Source of the DNA: an uncultured Helicobacteraceae bacterium
Lineage (GTDB): Bacteria > Campylobacterota > Campylobacteria > Campylobacterales > Sulfurimonadaceae
Reading direction: 5' to 3'
Length of the DNA stretch: 13,397 nt
Assembly: GCA_903903705.1 (NCBI GenBank)
Contig: CAIUZU010000175.1
Coordinates: 1-13,397 of the forward strand
The notes under the pieces were generated by a model, which saw only the letters and a program-made list of their open reading frames with translations, was not told the origin of the DNA and did not search any database. Positions 1,833 to 10,820 of this stretch are shown piece after piece. A program made the position numbers and the translations under genes. The first letter of the stretch is position 1, and each line of letters starts with the position of its first letter.

Positions 1833-2363
1833 TCACTGAAGTAAATCTGCTTTGACTAAAAGATCAACCTGATTTCTAACACACAAAAATACCATACATG
1901 GCATTTTAATGCCAAAATCACTCATGAGTATCATTGAAGAGGCATTAATTGTCAATTTACCATCAACAGAAACTATCTGAGCTTTTGCGATTAATGGTTT
2001 TTCTTTTCCATGGAAATCAAGCACTCCGTTAATGGTATAACTGTTGTTGCCGTCTGTTTTTTCTATGCTTGAGATAGTGTAAGTAGCAAGTTTAAATGTA
2101 TCTGATTCAACTTCTTTGTACATACTTTTATCTCTATCACTTTTGTCGCTCTTAAATAGATTCATATCAACCCAAAATTTACCTCTGAGAGTTGTTATGT
2201 CACTGCCATCCATTGTTATATCCGCATTTAGAGAGTTGTTTAAAGGATCGATAGTGCTATCCATAAGCATCTCAGTATGCGCCGCAACAGAGCCGCTCTT
2301 AAGTTGTAAATTTGCTGCAAGCAACGGTATCGTTAAAAACAGCGCCAATAGTATTTTTTTCAT
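1833..2363 (-). CDS. YceI-family periplasmic protein (lipocalin-like)
   Basis: This 176-residue protein has a signal peptide (about 1-17, cleaved near LLAA) followed by one YceI domain. The typical strand motif GVLDFHGKEKPL lies at 113-124, and the late SDFGIK element at 148-153, where YceI proteins usually have a similar SDFG-type segment. YceI proteins are beta-barrels that hold a long isoprenoid chain (polyisoprenoid or quinone-like), so this is probably a periplasmic carrier or sensor of such a molecule. Two cysteines (C156, C161) near the end could form a disulfide. The ATG at 2363 follows an AAGGA site, 10 bases after the stop of the upstream membrane-protein gene. This makes it the last gene of the membrane operon. 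That context suggests an isoprenoid or quinone-related role there, but this is inference. Confidence 0.85.
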   Translation of the reverse strand: MKKILLALFLTIPLLAANLQLKSGSVAAHTEMLMDSTIDPLNNSLNADITMDGSDITTLRGKFWVDMNLFKSDKSDRDKSMYKEVESDTFKLATYTISSIEKTDGNNSYTINGVLDFHGKEKPLIAKAQIVSVDGKLTINASSMILMSDFGIKMPCMVFLCVRNQVDLLVKADLLQ

Positions 2364-2373
2364 TTTTAATTCC

Positions 2374-3282
2374 TTAGTGTAAAATTCTTGATAAAGCGAT
2401 TGCTAAACCAAGTCCAGAGGCCATCCAGCCGACAAAAATCATCATAAAAGCAAGTTTAGAGAGATCCACCTCTTTGCTTAAAGTGGTAAAAACAACAACA
2501 TTGTAATATGAAATAGTAAAAGGATAAACCATGGCTAGTAAAAGAGGCAGTTCAAAATAGGAGAGTGAGTAGCTAGCGATAAAAAGAGCGGTTATAAATA
2601 AGTGCTGTTTTACCTTTGAAGCATCTACAAAGTAGGCCGCCACAAGTCCGGCAATATGAAAAATTGCAATCATTGAAGTCTCTTTTGACCAGATATCTAT
2701 TCTTGCATGTCTTGATAGAGTTTCAAAAAGATTTGAATCCAAGAGTATCCATAACATCAATGGAAGATAGGAAATAAACGAGTAAGAGAGTGTTTTAGCT
2801 TCAGTATTAACTTTATAATTTCTAAGCACGATAGCACAAAAGAGAGCAATTGATGTGAAAATGATTGCCATAAATACTCTATCATCAACTGCTGAAGTAA
2901 AAAAGTATGTGCCTGTCGTATAGGCAATAGCAAATGCAAAAAATAGCTCTCGCTGCTGTTTTGCTTTAAAGAGGTAGATACCTAGCGGTGCCATGAAACC
3001 AACTGCCAAGCCCAAAAGAAACAGAGAGAAAATATTAAAGTCAGGATATAAAAATGATAAGAAGAGCTGCAAAGTTAAAGCAACAATTATCTTGTGTAGA
3101 GGATTTTTCAAACCCATCCAAGAAATACCGCTTAACCAAGTTCCCATAACTCCGCCTAGAAACATCGGAAAAAGCGTCGCTAAATCTGAATTGTAGTGCG
3201 CAACTATACCGGTTTGAACTATAAGAAGATAGTATGTTAGTTCGAATCCGAGCAAGAGCGAAAGAGCAACGGAGTAAATCAT
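2374..3282 (-). CDS. Polytopic inner-membrane protein of unknown function (~10 helices)
   Basis: The 302 residues are almost entirely hydrophobic and form about ten helices, roughly at 2-25, 35-55, 63-82, 85-105, 112-130, 134-153, 168-183, 203-220, 226-268 and 276-298. Helix 2 contains FPMFLGGVMGTWLSG, a glycine-rich pattern like that of MFS-type or spermidine-synthase-like membrane domains. The resemblance is too weak to name a family. No catalytic motif or heme-ligand pattern was recognised. The ATG at 3282 overlaps the stop of the oxidase-like gene in an ATGA, so the two are translationally coupled and probably made in fixed ratio. It may be a partner subunit of that protein or a separate transporter. 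Confidence 0.7.
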   Translation of the reverse strand: MIYSVALSLLLGFELTYYLLIVQTGIVAHYNSDLATLFPMFLGGVMGTWLSGISWMGLKNPLHKIIVALTLQLFLSFLYPDFNIFSLFLLGLAVGFMAPLGIYLFKAKQQRELFFAFAIAYTTGTYFFTSAVDDRVFMAIIFTSIALFCAIVLRNYKVNTEAKTLSYSFISYLPLMLWILLDSNLFETLSRHARIDIWSKETSMIAIFHIAGLVAAYFVDASKVKQHLFITALFIASYSLSYFELPLLLAMVYPFTISYYNVVVFTTLSKEVDLSKLAFMMIFVGWMASGLGLAIALSRILH

Positions 3283-4820
3283 AAGCGGCTTCTAAATATA
3301 AGATAAATAAGAGCATACGAAATGTCATAAAAGCCGACAAGCAGACCTAATGCGTCTATCGTTCCCAGATAAAAGAGAGATAGAAAAATCGTTCCCGTAA
3401 TCAGACGAGCCAAAGATGTCAGATACGCTAAAGCGTGTGACTCTTTAGTTATTCCGATAAAGTGCAAAATACCCACAAATCCCATAAAACCAAATACTAA
3501 GTAGTAGTGTGGAGCAAATGCAAATCCTAAGAATTCAAAAAGCAGCGGTGCCGATAAAAAGAGTATCAGTGCACCCAAACCGTCGGATAAAAATCCGTTT
3601 AGATGATAAAGCTCTAAAAGAGAGAGCTTTGTTTTATGAATCTTTTGAACGATATAAAAAATTAGACCGCCGACTGCCACAACTCCTCCAAACAGGCGAA
3701 TCCACCACATAGAAGTAACATCTATATTCGCAAATCCCGCCTCTGTAAAACCGGCAAGAGAGAGTGAAACAAAGATAATGGCAATAACCGCAATCCAAAA
3801 ACTGATAAACTTCTTAGGAAGCGGATAGAAATATTTTAAGATACTAAGCGACATAAAAAATATACCAAGACCGATAGCCACATGCGCATGAGCTACAATG
3901 AGATCATTTCTATGAAACGGCCAGCGGATCTCGGGGATAAAGAGTATATTTCCTTGAATCATTACAAACAAAAACGCCCATATAGAGATAACCAAATAAG
4001 GTGTAGATTTAAGAGTCACTTTCGCATCTTTGCACCACTTTATCAAAAGCGGAGCATAAGCAAAAGTGAGCCACTGATAAACCCACTCCTCAGTGTAAGA
4101 AAGCTCTCCTCTAAATATACGGGTTGCAACTGAGAGCGCATAACCTGCAAGCGGAATTATCCAAAAAAGATCCCATTTTGCTTCAAAATTCTCTTTTGCA
4201 TGAAGTTTTATCATAAGATAAAAAAGAGGGATAAGAGTAAAACTCATGCCCAAAGTATTGTCGCCGTGAGGTCCGATAAGAGTTTTTTCTACCTGTCCGT
4301 AAGTCGGATTCATTAAAATCAAAAGTGCCAAAGGTGCGATAAAAAGAAGTGCTTTTGACACCTTTACCCAAAGCGGCTTAACCTCATACTGTTTTATAGT
4401 TTTAAAAATAGCTACTATATAAAAGATGCCCGAAGCCGCAAGTATAAAATTTAACTCATAAGCAAAATCATAAAAAGGCAGACCACGCTGAGCTCCCAAA
4501 GAGATGGAAACAACCGCCATAAATAAAAAGAGATGCCAAAGCAAAAAATAGTTTTTCAGAGGCTCTACCGCAACACTCAGGTCTAACTTCTCTTTTGCAA
4601 AAAGAGCAAAAGGAAGAAGAGAGAGAGCTAACATAATCGGACCGTAGAGCATAAGCGTTATATGAAGAGAACGTGTTGTTTGCGGATTTAAAAGAGTATC
4701 ATTTAATAAACTAAATCCTAAAAGTTGTGCTGAGTAAATCGCACCGACTAAAATAGAGCCTAAAAATATAAAAGCCCACACGGGCATAATCTGCTCTACT
4801 AATTTATAAAATTTGTCCAT
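3279..4820 (-). CDS. Divergent heme-copper oxidase subunit I-like membrane protein lacking the CuB His pair
   Basis: This 513-residue protein has about 12-14 transmembrane helices, the usual size for cbb3-type (CcoN-like) catalytic subunits. Aligned by eye with CcoN, H53 in SLHITLMLYG matches the low-spin heme ligand of helix 2. H185 in GPHGDNTLG matches the first CuB ligand and its following motif. H311 and H313 in VAHAHVAIG match the HxH pair that binds the two hemes. The spacing of these residues is close to that in CcoN. Where CcoN has Tyr-5 residues-His-His in helix 7, this protein has Y227 and then T233-R234, so two of the three CuB ligands are missing. It may bind heme b without reducing oxygen in the usual way. 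No CcoO or CcoP gene is nearby. The gene overlaps the ABC ATPase gene by 17 bases and has an AGG-containing site before ATG 4820. Family membership is fairly sure; function is not. Confidence 0.72.
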   Translation of the reverse strand: MDKFYKLVEQIMPVWAFIFLGSILVGAIYSAQLLGFSLLNDTLLNPQTTRSLHITLMLYGPIMLALSLLPFALFAKEKLDLSVAVEPLKNYFLLWHLFLFMAVVSISLGAQRGLPFYDFAYELNFILAASGIFYIVAIFKTIKQYEVKPLWVKVSKALLFIAPLALLILMNPTYGQVEKTLIGPHGDNTLGMSFTLIPLFYLMIKLHAKENFEAKWDLFWIIPLAGYALSVATRIFRGELSYTEEWVYQWLTFAYAPLLIKWCKDAKVTLKSTPYLVISIWAFLFVMIQGNILFIPEIRWPFHRNDLIVAHAHVAIGLGIFFMSLSILKYFYPLPKKFISFWIAVIAIIFVSLSLAGFTEAGFANIDVTSMWWIRLFGGVVAVGGLIFYIVQKIHKTKLSLLELYHLNGFLSDGLGALILFLSAPLLFEFLGFAFAPHYYLVFGFMGFVGILHFIGITKESHALAYLTSLARLITGTIFLSLFYLGTIDALGLLVGFYDISYALIYLIFRSRL

Positions 4821-5427
4821 CTTTTAACCTAATGATTTGAGTTGCGTAATTTTCTATCTGCATGTCATGGGAAGCAACTACGACAGTTGTTCCTTTTTTT
4901 GCTGCATTTTGCAAAAGTCCGTAGACTATAGTTGAGTTTTTTGAATCCAAACTTCCCGTAGGCTCATCCGCAAAGATGATTTTTGGCTCATTTATAAGAG
5001 CACGTGCTACTGCCACCCTTTGTCTTTGTCCGCCTGAGATCTCATTTGGATAGCGAGATGAGAGTTCTGCTATTCCAAGCTCGCCAAGCACTTTGTTTAT
5101 ATTTTGCTTTTTGTCTTCCAGTGCAGCTAGAGCGATATTTTCATAAACGCTGAGATAGTTTATGAGGTAGTGAAACTGAAAAACAAAACCTATTTTACTC
5201 TGGCGAAAGTAGTCGATATTTGAAATTTTATCAACACTCTCACCATCTATCAAAAGCTCTCCTTTTGATGGTTTTAAAAGTGTTGAGAGGATAGAGAGAA
5301 GTGTTGATTTTCCGCTTCCGCTCTCTCCGCTTAAGAAGAGAAATTCACCGCTTTTTATCTCAAAAGAGAGATCATAAAGCACCTGCTCAACACCGTAAAA
5401 ATGTGAAATATTAGATACTTTTATCAT
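4804..5427 (-). CDS. ABC transporter ATPase, LolD/MacB type
   Basis: This 207-residue nucleotide-binding subunit is complete: Walker [10 protein letters not shown] (34-42), Q-loop Q84, signature [10 protein letters not shown] (130-139), Walker B IIFADE (150-155), D-loop SLD (159-161) and H-loop H187. The SGGQ[QR]QRVAVARAL and DEPTGSLD spelling is characteristic of the LolD/MacB/FtsE group, which drives FtsX-like permeases rather than classical importers. The open frame extends upstream to 5478, but the start is placed at ATG 5427. There it overlaps the permease stop as ATGA, and the protein begins with [12 protein letters not shown], as family members do. It energises the permease encoded just before it. 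The frame ends inside the start region of the oxidase-like gene. Confidence 0.92.
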
Positions 5428-6497
5428 GCACACCCTTGATTTATAAGAAGAATCGGATCTGTTTTTGAAGCTATCCATGCAGGAATCAGCGAGCCAAACA
5501 ACGCCATTAATATGGTTGAAAACAGTACATACAGAGAAATCTGCAGTGAAAGCGTACCGTTTACATAGCCTTGAAGCATCTCTATATGAGGAAGCAGCGC
5601 TAAAATTCCAAGGCTTAGAACAAGGGCAAACAGATATGCAGAGACGCTCATGACAAGCGTTTCAAAAAAGAGATTTTTTATGATAAAAAGCCGGCTTTTA
5701 CCGAGTGCCCGCATAATCCCAAACTCCTCTTTGCGGGAGTTCACTATCATGCTCATAACCGAAGCAATTCCCATCAAACCCATGGCAAATGCTAAAAAAG
5801 AGATGACAAAAGATGAATTTTCGATTATCTTAAACTGGTTGTACTCTTTTACGAAATTCTGTGTAGTTTTTACCTCTATTTCGCTATCCAAAGCAGAGAT
5901 TTTTTTAACTATCTCATCTATCTCGCTAGGCGAATCGCAAGAGACTAAGATAAAAGAAGCAGAGCGGTTAAAAAGTTTTCCGGCATCTTCTATATTCATA
6001 ACGACTCCGCCCTCTTCAAAACCTATCTCACTGCTGTATGTGCCTGAAATTTTAAACTCTCTGTTGCCTATGTTTATATCCGAGGTTGAAAATTGCTTGG
6101 CTATATTCGTTCCCAAAATCACCTCGTTCTTTTTCGGGTATCCTCCGCTTGAGAGCTTATAGTGAGAAAAATGGTTGGCTGTTGTTCCGTATATGCCGGC
6201 AATGGGGATATGACCGATGGGAGAAGCTCCGACAATCATGGCATAACTTGAAGATACATGTTCAATTTTTTCTATTTTATCCATCAACAAGATATCTACA
6301 TTTGAGAAAAAAGTGTCAGAAATCCCTTTTTGAGTAATGATAATATCTCCGTCTGTTTTTATCATCTTTGAATACATTCCAATTATGCCATGAGAAACTG
6401 AGCTGATTAGAAAAATCGCCATTACAGCTATGGTAATAGATGAAAAAATCAGTAGACTTTTAAATCTGTTTTTGGTAAGTGCCTTTAGTGATATCAC
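5424..6497 (-). CDS. ABC transporter permease, MacB/FtsX family
   Basis: The 357-residue protein has the four-helix plan of the MacB/LolC/FtsX group. TM1 lies at about 12-33 and a periplasmic MacB_PCD-like domain at about 40-225. TM2 follows at 228-252, the coupling segment RKEEFGIMRALG at 255-266, TM3 at about 274-302 and TM4 at about 316-343. Members of this group transmit ATP hydrolysis mechanically to the periplasm, for example to extract lipoproteins or drive export, rather than passing solutes through a channel. The start is GTG 6497, which overlaps the stop of the preceding gene as GTGA. The partner ATPase follows with an ATGA overlap. No MacA-like adaptor or TolC is encoded in the visible region. 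The substrate is unknown. Confidence 0.88.
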   Translation of the reverse strand: MISLKALTKNRFKSLLIFSSITIAVMAIFLISSVSHGIIGMYSKMIKTDGDIIITQKGISDTFFSNVDILLMDKIEKIEHVSSSYAMIVGASPIGHIPIAGIYGTTANHFSHYKLSSGGYPKKNEVILGTNIAKQFSTSDINIGNREFKISGTYSSEIGFEEGGVVMNIEDAGKLFNRSASFILVSCDSPSEIDEIVKKISALDSEIEVKTTQNFVKEYNQFKIIENSSFVISFLAFAMGLMGIASVMSMIVNSRKEEFGIMRALGKSRLFIIKNLFFETLVMSVSAYLFALVLSLGILALLPHIEMLQGYVNGTLSLQISLYVLFSTILMALFGSLIPAWIASKTDPILLINQGCA

Positions 6498-6964
6498 TTT
6501 TCAATCGCCGCTTTTAACTCTTCTTTTCGCACGATAAACGAGATATGTTTAATTATAGAATTTTCAACATGTAAAAGCGTAACCATCTCCTCTTTGCCCA
6601 AAACAGATTGTTCAAACTTTTCATCATAGTTTAGATACATTGGGTGTTTATATTTTCTAAGTTTTGGCAATGCGAACATTTTTGTAATAACGCTCGGCAT
6701 TTTGTTTATATCTGCAATAAAAATAGAGTTGTATTTTGTTAAATAGTCCGAACTTTTGGTATTTAAGTACTCATTTACTAAAGCTCCCGTATCTTTTTCA
6801 AAAGAAACAATTATGAGTTTTACATCTTTTGGGATTTTTATCTCATTCCCTTGAGGTGTTACATATTTAAACTCATTAAGTTTGGTTATAGAAGAAGAAA
6901 CATTCAAAAAATCAGCATTTAAGGCTAAAACAGACAACGCAAAAAATAAGAGCACTTTACTCAT
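6494..6964 (-). CDS. Secreted thioredoxin-fold-like protein without cysteines
   Basis: This 156-residue protein begins with a signal peptide (about 1-17, likely cleaved after LNA). The remainder has the strand-helix order of a small thioredoxin-like domain: a strand KLIIVSF, a long helix, then a HPMYL segment where thioredoxins carry the cis-proline strand. It ends with two strands (MVTLLHVENS, IIKHISFIV) and a final helix. The position of the CxxC motif reads FEKDTGALV and there is no cysteine in the protein, so it cannot act as a thiol oxidoreductase. The fold assignment is by eye and tentative. ATG 6964 has an AAGGA site 8 bases upstream. The gene overlaps the permease gene by four bases, so it is probably the periplasmic partner of that transporter. 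Confidence 0.7.
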   Translation of the reverse strand: MSKVLLFFALSVLALNADFLNVSSSITKLNEFKYVTPQGNEIKIPKDVKLIIVSFEKDTGALVNEYLNTKSSDYLTKYNSIFIADINKMPSVITKMFALPKLRKYKHPMYLNYDEKFEQSVLGKEEMVTLLHVENSIIKHISFIVRKEELKAAIEK

Positions 6965-7002: not shown

Positions 7003-7758
7003 TTATAAATTGATAGTTAATAGGGCTATTTCGCTCTTAGCTTTGTACCTGATATTTAAACCCCAGTATCCCAGACCGTTGCTTACATATAAAATTGTCT
7101 TATTGTGAGTGTATAGTCCGCTAAAATAGGGCTGAAAAAACTTGACTATTTTGCTAAACGGATAGACCTGCCCACCGTGTGTGTGTCCGCTTAGTTGAAT
7201 GTCAATGCGGTAAGATCCTACATGTTCTATGTCTTTTGGTTGATGTGTAAGAAGTATTGTTGCTAAATCTGGATCAAGTTTTGAAAACAACTCTTTTATC
7301 GGGCGTTTAATTCCGCATAAAAAACTGTATCTGTCGCTGAGACCTACTAGTTGCAACTCAAAATCTTTTATTTTCAATTTTACTATTTCATTATCTAGGC
7401 AGATAATATTGCTCTCGTTCATGATACGCTTTAGCTCTTTTATACCATAAACCAAATCATGATTACCTGTCACAAAGTAAGCTTTTGCTTCAAAGTTTTT
7501 AAATATTTCAATATGCTCTTTTAGATATATAGCCTTTGTTTGAAGAATATCTCCGGTAAAAACTATAAAATCCGGCTTTATATCATTTATCTTCTCTACC
7601 AACAGTTTAAGATAAGCGAGATTAACCTTTTTTGTAAGATGCAAATCAGAGAGCTGAATAATGCGCACACCCATAATGTCACTGTTATAACACTCATTTT
7701 TTATTGTGACTTCTTTAATGGGAAAATAGTTCCAGCCGATTTGTAATGGCAATTCCAC
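7003..7758 (-). CDS. Metallophosphoesterase, calcineurin-like (YkuE type)
   Basis: The 251-residue protein carries all metal-binding motifs of the calcineurin-like phosphoesterase fold: D38 and H40 in QLSDLHL, D70 in FTGDI, N99-H100 in VTGNHD, H172 in LLTHQP, and H192 and H194 in SGHTHGGQVYP. It resembles the YkuE/YaeI group, some of which hydrolyse lipid A precursors or phospholipids, but the substrate cannot be read here. Most relatives have an N-terminal membrane anchor; this protein has none, so it is probably cytoplasmic or peripheral. The first start is GTG 7758, only 3 bases after an AAGG. TTG 7752 is better spaced from AAGG and is a real alternative. ATG 7674 would cut off a conserved strand and is unlikely. 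It lies 38 bases upstream of the ABC operon and may be its first gene. Confidence 0.88.
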   Translation of the reverse strand: MELPLQIGWNYFPIKEVTIKNECYNSDIMGVRIIQLSDLHLTKKVNLAYLKLLVEKINDIKPDFIVFTGDILQTKAIYLKEHIEIFKNFEAKAYFVTGNHDLVYGIKELKRIMNESNIICLDNEIVKLKIKDFELQLVGLSDRYSFLCGIKRPIKELFSKLDPDLATILLTHQPKDIEHVGSYRIDIQLSGHTHGGQVYPFSKIVKFFQPYFSGLYTHNKTILYVSNGLGYWGLNIRYKAKSEIALLTINL

Positions 7759-7776
7759 CTACCTTAGTTTTTGTAT

Positions 7777-7805
7777 ATTATGCTACTATTATTTAAACAA
7801 ATCAA
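7777..7805 (-). promoter_or_regulatory. Sigma70-type promoter for the leftward phosphoesterase/transporter genes
   Basis: On the minus strand TTGATT (7800-7805) is separated by 17 bases from CATAAT (7777-7782), giving a leader of roughly 10-20 bases to the phosphoesterase start. It lies in the 59-base divergent gap. Its -35 box overlaps the region just before the rightward gene's ribosome binding site, so the two directions may compete. Confidence 0.5.
7781..7789 (+). promoter_or_regulatory. Extended -10 element for the SYLF-domain gene
   Basis: TGCTACTAT at 7781-7789 fits the extended -10 pattern (TG, one base, then TACTAT). No good -35 box is seen, as is common in Campylobacterota promoters. 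The start of transcription would be near 7796, with AAGGG as ribosome binding site before ATG 7818. Confidence 0.4.
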
Positions 7806-7817
7806 GGGTAAAAGAGC

Positions 7818-8408
7818 ATGAAAGAGTTAAGATTAATAGTAAGTTTGCTTTTTATAGTTGTTGCTTTTTCAGGTTTTTGGTCCGGAAAAAGCCCAAAAGA
7901 GATAAAAGAAGATAACCGCAAGGAGAGAGTGGAGCGGTTAAAAACAAACAATGAGACACTGCAACTGCTTTACAAATATGCACCGGAAGCTAAAAACATG
8001 ATACTTAACTCTTATGGATATGCAACGTTTAGCAATACCGGAGTAAGTCTTGTTCTCTTATCGGCGGAGGGCGGCAAGGGAGTTGCACATGACAATAAAA
8101 CCGGGATGTATACTTATATGAATATGGCTTCGGGGGGTGTCGGACTGGGTCTTGGCGTTAAAGAGTTCAGGGCTGTATTTTTATTTAAGGATAAAAAAGC
8201 ATATGATAGTTTTTTAAATAACGGCTGGGAGGCAAACGCTCAAGCTGATGCCGCTGCAAAATATGATGAGAGCGGCGGAGCATTCGGTGCCGCTGAGACT
8301 GTTGCTTCTGGGGTTAGACTTTATAAACTGACACAAAATGGTTTAGCACTTCAAGCTACGATTCAGGGAACGAAGTATTGGAAGGATAAAGAGTTAAATA
8401 AGAATTAA
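7818..8408 (+). CDS. SYLF (Ysc84-like) lipid-binding domain protein, secreted
   Basis: This 196-residue protein has an N-terminal hydrophobic segment (about 4-20) that is probably a signal peptide or anchor; it lacks a lipobox cysteine. A basic linker and a short helix (about 25-60) follow, then a SYLF domain from about 60 to the end. SYLF hallmarks are YGYATF (66-71), GGKGVA (85-90) and the glycine-rich strand GGVGLGLGVKEFRAVFLF (106-123). SYLF domains bind phosphoinositides in eukaryotes. The bacterial members are envelope proteins of unclear role. The ATG at 7818 has AAGGG upstream. The gene heads a rightward run of three secreted-protein genes, with 59 bases to the next one, so it may be transcribed separately. 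Confidence 0.85.
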   Translation: MKELRLIVSLLFIVVAFSGFWSGKSPKEIKEDNRKERVERLKTNNETLQLLYKYAPEAKNMILNSYGYATFSNTGVSLVLLSAEGGKGVAHDNKTGMYTYMNMASGGVGLGLGVKEFRAVFLFKDKKAYDSFLNNGWEANAQADAAAKYDESGGAFGAAETVASGVRLYKLTQNGLALQATIQGTKYWKDKELNKN

Positions 8409-8467: not shown

Positions 8468-8914
8468 ATGAAAAAAATTTTAGTTAGCTTTGCTGCGGTT
8501 GTAGCATTATGCTCATCTGCAATGGCAGGCGTAAATTCTCAAACTGGTTGTGGACTTGGTGCGATGATTATCAAAGATAATTCAACTGCGGTTTTGTTGG
8601 CACTTCAAGCTACAACAAATGGTACTTCTGGAAATCAAACATTCGGTATTACATCGGGAACACTAGGATGTCAAAAAACTAAGTTTGTTATGAATGAGCA
8701 GGCACAAGAGTTTGTCGCTTCAAACATGGATCAACTTGCAAAAGAGATTGCAGTGGGTCATGGTGAGAGTATAGAGACTTTGGCAGAGCTTTTAGCAGTG
8801 TCTGACAAAGTGGCTTTTGCTACATCGCTTCAAGAGAATTACAACAGCATCTACACAAGCCAAAATGCTACAATGTCTGATGTTCTAGATAATATCTCTA
8901 CTACAACTTTATAA
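8468..8914 (+). CDS. DUF3015 family periplasmic protein
   Basis: The 148-residue product has a clear signal peptide cleaved after AMA (about residue 20). The mature part starts with the DUF3015 pattern: TGCGLGAMI at 26-34, then ATTNGTSGNQTFGITSGTLGC at about 48-68. C28 and C68 are the conserved cysteines and probably form a disulfide in the periplasm. The rest is helical (about 75-145). The molecular function of this family is not known. It lies between a SYLF gene and a DUF4105 gene, both also for envelope proteins. A long RNA hairpin follows 12 bases after its stop, suggesting a transcript end or processing site. Confidence 0.88.
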   Translation: MKKILVSFAAVVALCSSAMAGVNSQTGCGLGAMIIKDNSTAVLLALQATTNGTSGNQTFGITSGTLGCQKTKFVMNEQAQEFVASNMDQLAKEIAVGHGESIETLAELLAVSDKVAFATSLQENYNSIYTSQNATMSDVLDNISTTTL

Positions 8915-8996: not shown

Positions 8997-10820
8997 TTAA
9001 ATAAATCTTTTTTATTACTCATTTTTTGCATTACTTTTTTAAATGCTTCCACTCATCTTTACAAACAAAAAGCACAAGAGTTGAATTTATCACAATCAAG
9101 ATATTGGGGTCTGCTTCTTCATAGCGTTGATGGAGTCAGTGAGATAGATGATGAAGCGTTTTTCTTTGCAAAAGATGGCAAAAGCAATGCACAAAGTGAA
9201 CTAAATGCCACAATAGAGGCTCTTTTAAATGAAACTGTTTTTGATGACAACTCTGCTGCATGCAGATTTCCAGCTAGAAAAGCTTGGCTCAAAGAGCAGT
9301 TAAACATTATAGAGTTTCCAAAAACAGAGTGCAAAGAGTATGAGAAAGTTCTCAAACGCTTAAACCCAAAATCAGTAACCTTAGTCTTCCCATCAGCTCA
9401 TATAAACTCACCTGCATCGATGTTTGGGCATACTTTTTTACGCATTAATTCTGCTTATGATTCCAAACTTCTCTCTTATGCGGTAAATTATGCAGCAGAT
9501 GCGAATCCCGATAAAGAAAACGCCGTTCTTTTTGCGATAAAAGGACTATTTGGCGGCTACTTCGGTAAATATTCTCTTCTCCCATACTATGACAAGCTAA
9601 AAGAGTATAGAGACAGCGAACAAAGAGATATTTGGGAATATGATTTGAACTTGAGTGAAGAAGAGACGATTAAAATGTTAAAACATATTTGGGAGTTGAA
9701 TGAAACTCATTCATACTACTATTTTTTTACCGAAAACTGCTCTTATAATATGCTTTGGTTTCTAGAAGCAGCAAGACCCGAGATCCATTTAAGAGAATAT
9801 TTTAATAATCAAATTATCCCTCTTGAAACCGTGCATGCAGCAAAAGCAGAGGGTATTATAAAAGATAGTTTTTACAGACCATCAAAGAGAACTACGCTTT
9901 TAAAATATGAAGATCTTATAAAAGAAGAGTATCAAATTATGCCTCTCTTGCTTGTTGATTCAGATATCACACACGAATATATTACGCTTAATAAAGATAT
10001 AGATTTACAGCAAAAAAGATATATATTGGAGGCTTCGATAGAACTTTTAGAATATAGATTTAGCAAAAGTAAAATAAAAAAAGAGGAGTATCTAAAGCTT
10101 TTTCATGCCCTCTCAAAAGCAAGAGCTGCACTTGGAGCGGGAGAAAAGATAGCTATCAAAACTCCTCCAAACCCAATAGAAAGCCATCAGGCGATAAGAG
10201 TTTCTTTAGGCGGCGGTGTAAGAGAGGGCGAATCAATAGGCTTTATAGGAATTCGTCCTGCATATCACGACTTAGAGGATAGCAGTTATGGTTTTTTACG
10301 AGGCACACAGATAGAGTTTCTTGATTTTGAACTCTCTTACTCGCAAAATAAAGCAGAGATTGAAAAGGCAACAATACTCTCGATTGTTTCACTTGCACAA
10401 AGATCTGATTTTTTTAAAAATTTATCATGGAGAACTAAATTTGGCTGGGATAGAAATTCTCCTAGCGAAGAAGCAGCTTTTATAGGAACCGTAGGCATCG
10501 GACTTAGCTGGGGAAATGAACTTGCTTATGTCTATATGATGGCTGATCCGCTCTTTTACCTTGATGAAAAGTATACCTCTGCCGTAGGTGGAAGTATTGG
10601 ATTGGTTTTTGACAAATACAACAACATGAGCACAATCCTAGAGGCTACTAGAAGATGGTACGACAGTGGATATGAACAGCAGTTGGTAAATGTTTCACAA
10701 ACATTCAGAGCATCACAAAATGTTCAACTGAAATTTAAGTATGACTATAAAGAGAGAAGTGATTTTAAGATAGAGCATGAAGAGAATAGTTTTAGCATAT
10801 ATCTAAACTACTATTTTTAG
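8994..10820 (+). CDS. DUF4105 (Lnb N-terminal-like) protein with probable outer-membrane barrel
   Basis: With the ATT start at 8994 the protein has 608 residues. It has a signal peptide (about 1-18, cleavage near LNA), then a helical region with conserved cysteines, then the DUF4105 domain at about 125-300. That domain includes SAHINSPASMFGHTFLRI with H146 and FTENCSYN with C249, a His/Cys arrangement reminiscent of papain-like or NlpC/P60 enzymes. The C-terminal third (about 400-608) is rich in alternating amphipathic strands and ends in phenylalanine (NYYF), as outer-membrane beta-barrels do. It is therefore probably an envelope hydrolase-like domain tethered to the outer membrane; the reaction is unknown. 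The ordinary start TTG 9081 would give 579 residues without any export signal, which makes no sense for this family. The gene ends 6 bases from the stop of the converging AMIN gene. Confidence 0.85.
   Translation: MLNKSFLLLIFCITFLNASTHLYKQKAQELNLSQSRYWGLLLHSVDGVSEIDDEAFFFAKDGKSNAQSELNATIEALLNETVFDDNSAACRFPARKAWLKEQLNIIEFPKTECKEYEKVLKRLNPKSVTLVFPSAHINSPASMFGHTFLRINSAYDSKLLSYAVNYAADANPDKENAVLFAIKGLFGGYFGKYSLLPYYDKLKEYRDSEQRDIWEYDLNLSEEETIKMLKHIWELNETHSYYYFFTENCSYNMLWFLEAARPEIHLREYFNNQIIPLETVHAAKAEGIIKDSFYRPSKRTTLLKYEDLIKEEYQIMPLLLVDSDITHEYITLNKDIDLQQKRYILEASIELLEYRFSKSKIKKEEYLKLFHALSKARAALGAGEKIAIKTPPNPIESHQAIRVSLGGGVREGESIGFIGIRPAYHDLEDSSYGFLRGTQIEFLDFELSYSQNKAEIEKATILSIVSLAQRSDFFKNLSWRTKFGWDRNSPSEEAAFIGTVGIGLSWGNELAYVYMMADPLFYLDEKYTSAVGGSIGLVFDKYNNMSTILEATRRWYDSGYEQQLVNVSQTFRASQNVQLKFKYDYKERSDFKIEHEENSFSIYLNYYF

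Follow-up and report, generated by a model that had tools for sequence, protein, structure and literature searches.

A contig of 13,397 nucleotides from an uncultured Helicobacteraceae bacterium (CAIUZU010000175.1, assembly GCA_903903705.1), which as a whole is called the window below, carries six adjoining genes for envelope proteins that recur together in Campylobacterales, and the evidence that they form a conserved, co-inherited unit is strong. The set joins a FtsX/MacB-type permease and its ABC ATPase to a YceI-family protein, a small secreted protein, a membrane protein of about 300 residues with a modelled major facilitator superfamily (MFS) fold, and a member of the heme-copper oxidase (HCO) superfamily in which, on a modelled oxidase fold, the heme-ligand histidines are invariant and the CuB triad is absent. 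We tentatively read the set as an envelope module, centred on the type VII (MacB-type) ABC pair, that may handle a quinone- or lipid-like molecule with the help of a diheme redox partner, a reading that we favour as possible rather than probable. The genes of the window that matter here are as follows.

1833..2363, minus strand: YceI-family protein with an apparent signal peptide, 176 residues (PF04264 above cut-off)
2374..3282, minus strand: 11-helix MFS-fold membrane protein, 302 residues, without a Pfam family (modelled fold)
3279..4820, minus strand: HCO-superfamily subunit I-like protein, 513 residues, with a 12-helix core and four extra helices (modelled fold, hhalign to CcoN, COX1)
4804..5427, minus strand: LolD/FtsE-like ABC ATPase, 207 residues (ABC_tran, E = 2.7e-35)
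5424..6497, minus strand: single FtsX/MacB-type permease with a periplasmic domain, 357 residues, GTG start (PF02687, PF12704)
6494..6964, minus strand: small secreted protein, 156 residues, cysteine-free (family in 50 of 61 loci)
7003..7758, minus strand: calcineurin-like metallophosphoesterase (LpxG/YaeI-like, below cut-offs; PF00149, E = 2.6e-15)

In the window's list of open reading frames (ORFs), the first six of these span 1833-6964 on one strand. Read from the small secreted gene through those for the permease, the ATPase, the oxidase-like protein and the MFS-fold protein, successive genes overlap by 4, 4, 17 and 4 bases; the YceI gene follows after a gap of 10 bases. This arrangement, coordinates included, confirms what the preliminary description of the window had observed. 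For the ATPase, the listed ORF has 224 residues from position 5478, and an internal ATG at residue 18 gives the 207-residue form listed above.

Co-inheritance of the six genes

Searches for the oxidase-like gene matched 59 of 200 genomes from the same family (one of them, G142, with only a relic) and 34 of 298 genomes of the phylum, which belong to 14 of 58 genera, five families and one order. A scan of 84,980 species genomes with two short motifs yielded 101 relatives; of the 80 listed, all are titled as Campylobacterota taxa except one "Proteobacteria bacterium." The gene had no match in 72,556 plasmid records. Its nearest named homologue, in a Sulfurimonas metagenome-assembled genome (L118), is 95% identical in the oxidase-like protein.

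Neighbourhoods were compared in 61 loci, the window and 60 relatives, which were picked by their oxidase-like gene, so that the rate of this gene among them holds by design. The permease, ATPase and MFS-fold genes are present in all 61, the YceI gene in 60 and the small secreted gene in 50. The 80 listed among the 101 motif-scan loci, whose genomes are partly shared with the 61, were counted in the same way (permease 77, ATPase 77, MFS-fold protein 76, YceI 73, small protein 60, phosphoesterase 40); several of the misses lie at contig ends, and L181 has no YceI gene despite some 8 kb on each side. A further comparison used the MFS-fold protein as query, a choice independent of the oxidase-like gene: it found exactly the same 34 of 298 phylum genomes, and 64 of 200 family genomes, including all 59 with an oxidase-like match. 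The set is also retained where its order changes, as in L113, L116 and L117 (MFS-YceI-FtsX-ATPase-oxidase-like). The set noted in the preliminary description recurs in five families; in the 60 related loci, the genes are not scattered, nor is the oxidase-like protein always found with other partners.

Averaged over ten close relatives, identity to the window is 86% for the permease, 84% for the oxidase-like protein, 82% for the ATPase, 70% for the MFS-fold protein, 68% for the YceI protein and 61% for the small protein; the oxidase-like protein is conserved there like the ABC pair.

Oxidase-like protein and its partners

The window's oxidase-like protein matches COX1 at no better than E = 0.002, under the gathering score. 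In alignment A1 (the window protein and 51 of 120 listed homologues; alignment A2 holds the window and 50 of 120 from another list), COX1 matches at E ≤ 1 in 49 of 52 members, the window included, with a best value of 1.7e-10. Sequence searches of PDB gave no match for this protein, nor one at E ≤ 5 for the MFS-fold protein, and fold comparison was therefore used instead. The modelled fold is the 12-helix HCO fold with four extra C-terminal helices, closest to cbb3 oxidases and nitric oxide reductases (NOR). By hhalign, H53, H311 and H313 align to histidines of CcoN (global E 2.9e-5, probability 48%), among which we take the low-spin heme to be bound by one histidine of helix 2 and one of helix 10, and the high-spin heme by another of helix 10. 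The CuB or FeB site of HCO subunit I has three histidine ligands, one in helix 6 and two in helix 7; in the alignment to CcoN, the helix-6 position falls on D187 and the helix-7 pair on G238/E239. H53, H311, H313 and D187 are invariant in all 60 oxidase-like sequences, and the CuB triad occurs in none of the 60, which upholds the earlier view of a CuB-less oxidase-like protein.

We take the product to be a diheme b protein that lacks CuB, in which both hemes would be bound. Its electron source is probably quinol, since the CxxCH motif is absent from the 60 sequences and the eight window proteins scanned include neither a subunit II nor a cytochrome c domain. The protein resembles CcoN of the cbb3 oxidases and NorB of cNOR in its 12-helix fold and aligned heme-ligand histidines, but differs from them in the missing triad, the four added helices, the ABC operon around it and the lack, among the genes scanned, of one for cytochrome c or subunit II. 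A 736-residue ATPase-oxidase ORF in L113 was rejected as a fusion, being an alternate-frame ORF; a 644-residue ATPase-oxidase ORF in L165 may be a frameshift.

Profile matches bear out the earlier assignment of the ABC pair to the MacB/LolD type and of the last gene to YceI. The permease matches FtsX (PF02687, E = 4e-15) and MacB_PCD (PF12704, E = 4.3e-15). The top NCBIfam model for the ATPase is LolD, at 187.5 bits under a cut-off of 307.75. Curated families are not reached: the LolC/E model scores 61.2 bits against a cut-off of 362.45, which places the pair outside LolCDE; FtsE and FtsX score 184.4 against 264.85 and 23.9 against 255, outside FtsEX; and the MacB model gives 157 and 17.8 against 966 bits, which, with ATPase and permease encoded by separate genes, places the pair outside MacAB-TolC. 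The likeness to the type VII systems MacB, LolCDE, FtsEX and HrtAB (the last set alongside by description only) lies in the FtsX-type permease with its periplasmic domain and in the LolD/FtsE-like ATPase, whereas the scores below the curated LolD, LolCE, FtsE, FtsX and MacB cut-offs and the other partner genes set the window apart. The YceI protein scores 49.7 bits on PF04264 (E = 6.6e-13, cut-off 23.7). YceI proteins of the operon score low on this model (49.5 bits for the window and 80.5 for G062), whereas other members in the same bacterial family reach as much as 172.5, and to judge by such scores they are perhaps a divergent subgroup.

The MFS-fold protein was earlier described as having about ten helices; it is a membrane protein as stated, but the model gives it 11 helices in an MFS fold, with the efflux pump EfpA among the best fold matches. 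Pfam searches with 18 members gave no MFS family at E ≤ 1. In L070 (10122-11630), this protein and YceI read as a single 502-residue ORF, and because of this fusion L070 was omitted from the profile of the MFS-fold family. In L100 (G250), the gene is interrupted by two opposite-strand ORFs, perhaps a mobile element. G054, a genome rated 7% contaminated, has on contig C382 (11384-11670) a second MFS-fold gene in fragments with stops, besides its L201 copy.

The small secreted protein had been called cysteine-free and thioredoxin-like. The first part holds: 44 of 46 family members have no cysteine after residue 25, and none has CxxC. The second is unsupported by profile tests, in which the window scan gave no credible family, the Pfam matches of 16 members included no thioredoxin family, PDB gave no thioredoxin match, and hhalign to 16 AhpC-TSA proteins (from which three mis-picked ORFs, L240, L245 and L246, had been removed) did not outdo the reversed control (E = 0.36 against 0.2). 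The family matches 68 of 298 phylum genomes and has stand-alone members. Among 15 members outside the operon, 12 have no cysteine after residue 25, none has CxxC and some have a lipobox-like start; in L221-L237 (the gene list of L228 is partial), no FtsX or ATPase match stands beside the stand-alone genes.

Proposed mechanism, natural losses and alternatives

YceI proteins hold isoprenoids, often ubiquinone-8, and the YceI protein BcnA acts against lipid peroxyl radicals together with a cytochrome b561 (PMC9113575), thought to reduce the molecule for it; MacB-type systems do work on the periplasmic side (PMC5985334). In the module that we propose, the permease and ATPase would spend cytoplasmic ATP to act mechanically where the inner membrane faces the periplasm, pulling a lipophilic molecule, either an isoprenoid quinone or some damaged lipid, from the membrane and handing it over to the YceI protein; the MFS-fold protein might shift the same molecule between leaflets; and the oxidase-like diheme b protein could be a quinol-linked electron carrier that reduces it, by analogy with cytochrome b561 and BcnA. 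From the parts we infer such a cargo, this direction of transport and a physical complex. Among the closest described systems is BcnA-LcoA (a YceI lipocalin and cytochrome b561; PMC9113575): there as here, the YceI protein is encoded near a heme b membrane protein, but the predicted heme protein of the window is an HCO-superfamily offshoot, and its company includes an MFS-fold protein and the ABC pair. No cytochrome b561 domain occurs in the eight window proteins scanned. Slightly more doubtful is the further idea of a new kind of envelope machine, with ATP-driven extraction and quinol-driven reduction united in one complex, in which an HCO diheme protein that lost its CuB site, and with it O2 or NO chemistry, would drive the reduction of a lipophile presented by YceI.

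Several observations weigh against the proposed mechanism, among them the loss of single parts. Five family genomes have the MFS-fold gene and no oxidase-like match (G034, G054, G118, G153 and G184), and G142 has only the relic. In G184 a contig end cuts into the operon, and G118 is rearranged; both are little informative, which leaves four informative genomes without a full oxidase-like gene: L071 (G142), L198 (G153), L199 (G034) and L201 (G054). At L071, an internal deletion leaves an 86-residue oxidase-like relic, and the YceI ORF is cut to 85 residues (8631-8891 and 7459-7716, respectively); at L201, the match to the small protein is limited to residues 1-56. L198 and L199 have the other five genes intact and keep, respectively, 38 and 39 of 40 near-invariant positions in the MFS-fold protein and 71 and 73 of 73 in the permease, with 33 of 33 in the ATPase and 13 of 13 in YceI in both. 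In a tree of the permease, ATPase and MFS-fold protein (FastTree, midpoint-rooted, without printed support values), L071 is sister to L045 (G140), which has the gene, and L199 and L201 nest among gene-bearing lineages; these placements imply at least two separate losses, and L198 may be a third. The oxidase-like part is thus dispensable in some lineages, and since L198 and L199 keep the other five genes, not every lineage needs the electron transfer. Loss of the oxidase-like gene may also mark the beginning of operon decay, as L071 and L201, two of the four, are damaged further.

Other parts are missing as well: L108 has no YceI match in its surroundings, and 11 of 61 loci have no small secreted protein. 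At L221 (G073, 7405-7875), the operon is gone and the same chromosomal site holds an orphan small secreted gene between the usual neighbours. Of 200 family genomes, 147 encode YceI proteins, and many of these genomes have no such operon. The alignment to the CcoN profile is weak (probability 31-48%), and a histidine at position 238 in 19 of 60 oxidase-like sequences or at 239 in 5 of 60 (both in none) makes a lone ligand-like histidine common in some clades. No physiological correlate of the operon's distribution was found. NosZ passes its cut-off in 15 of 59 genomes with an oxidase-like match against 57 of 141 others (within the former, in 13 of 25 of the same genus, 2 of 32 of genus g14 and 0 of 2 of g6), and a link to denitrification was rejected for lack of a positive association. 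The earlier claim that the six genes form one machine is supported as to co-inheritance but not as to mutual dependence of all six, given the losses at L198 and L199, the missing and the stand-alone small proteins, YceI without the operon and the conserved neighbours beyond the six; as a whole, that interpretation is partly supported.

The set might instead sense and remove hydrophobic toxic compounds, the ABC pair and MFS-fold protein exporting or detoxifying them, YceI sequestering, a two-component system sensing, and the oxidase-like protein modifying or protecting. Eight loci, of which seven belong to family f7 and one to f10, have the operon continue on the same strand into phosphoesterase, response regulator and histidine kinase genes; L050 has its regulator and kinase genes inserted between those for the oxidase-like and MFS-fold proteins. 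The pair at L104 best matches the heavy-metal CopRS type, and HprR is the second-best model for the regulator, though every score is below cut-off; for the regulator in the window, other models score highest. EfpA among the best fold matches points the same way, as do the binding of antibiotics by BcnA (PMC9113575) and the place of MacB-family members in antibiotic efflux and sensing (PMC5985334). We consider this unlikely, because the eight window proteins scanned include no membrane-fusion protein or outer-membrane factor, the diheme protein would have no obvious role, the fold names no substrate and regulators are linked in few loci. Heme handling would have the FtsX-type pair draw heme from the membrane while the oxidase-like protein binds or passes heme b. 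The model is HrtAB, a MacB-type permease with a separate ATPase that is proposed to remove heme from the membrane, and whose HrtB is described with two conserved periplasmic tyrosines (PMC5985334). Invariant heme-ligand histidines and a fold nearest to cbb3 and NOR agree with such a role, but the YceI and MFS-fold proteins would be left unexplained, and the HrtAB likeness is one of description. As far as is known, cytochromes are general in Campylobacterota, and the oxidase-like gene goes unmatched in 264 of 298 phylum genomes, so the protein is not needed for heme insertion as such; we hold the heme reading to be distinctly unlikely.

Redox-linked metal uptake or release would align the set with FetMP-FetABCDEF of Campylobacter jejuni, in the same phylum: the membrane redox protein, the FtsX-type ABC pair and the small periplasmic protein would help to reduce a metal so that it can be transported. 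The accessible part of its description joins permeases, an ATPase and a multi-helix membrane protein of proposed redox role with small periplasmic proteins in one cluster (PMC10783030), parts of the same kind as here, and heavy-metal-type regulators adjoin the L104 operon. Yet as described there, Fet has two permeases, the DUF2318/YHS protein FetA, CxxC thioredoxins and FetM/FetP, with no YceI or MFS-fold protein, where the window has one permease and an HCO fold. PF10080 (DUF2318) has no match in 38 of 41 genomes searched, the window's 79% complete genome among the 38, and operon-bearing G101 gives a weak match with stops; the small protein is without CxxC, and the FtsX profile scores 18-44 bits on four permeases of two fet-like clusters. 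This makes the metal reading very unlikely. That the oxidase-like protein is a working O2 or NO reductase, assembled by the other gene products, seems highly improbable: the HCO fold with cbb3 and NOR as best matches would suit it, and a different metal could be bound by D187, H185 and, in certain clades, H238 or H239, but the triad is absent from all 60 sequences, no subunit II or cytochrome c accompanies it among the scanned proteins, and the other five genes persist after its loss in L198 and L199. Neighbours without joint function, kept by chance or linkage, might be suspected from the small secreted and YceI family members found elsewhere; recurrence of the set in five families with altered order, and the identical 34-of-298 distribution of two unrelated genes, leave this disfavoured reading a barely credible one.

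Neighbouring genes and significance

The metallophosphoesterase gene lies on the same strand as the six genes, 38 bases upstream, and is possibly the first gene of the operon in the window. In 34 of 61 loci, a phosphoesterase of its cluster lies no more than six ORFs away from the oxidase-like gene and shares its strand (L071, where the relic is outside the cluster, is uncounted). Promoter and terminator scans both came out at the shuffled mean. On the plus strand, 9081-10820 encodes a 579-residue protein, presumably resembling DUF4105 proteins, whose cluster lies near the operon in 13 loci; alongside it are a 196-residue gene product with a weak Ysc84 match and one of 148 residues.

Each part except the small secreted protein belongs to a known superfamily, and the combination is what appears new. 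As the preliminary description had supposed, no system with this set, and no CuB-less HCO offshoot inside an ABC operon, was found among the titles and abstract openings listed in a literature search whose scope left out most subscription journals. A CuB-less HCO-fold protein that keeps company with an ABC transporter instead of respiratory subunits would put the respiratory oxidase fold to an unusual second use. To our knowledge, neither YceI proteins nor many FtsX-type ABC systems have a settled function. The functions of both become testable through a set that is compact, conserved in free-living Sulfurimonas and Sulfurospirillum, and has lost single parts naturally.

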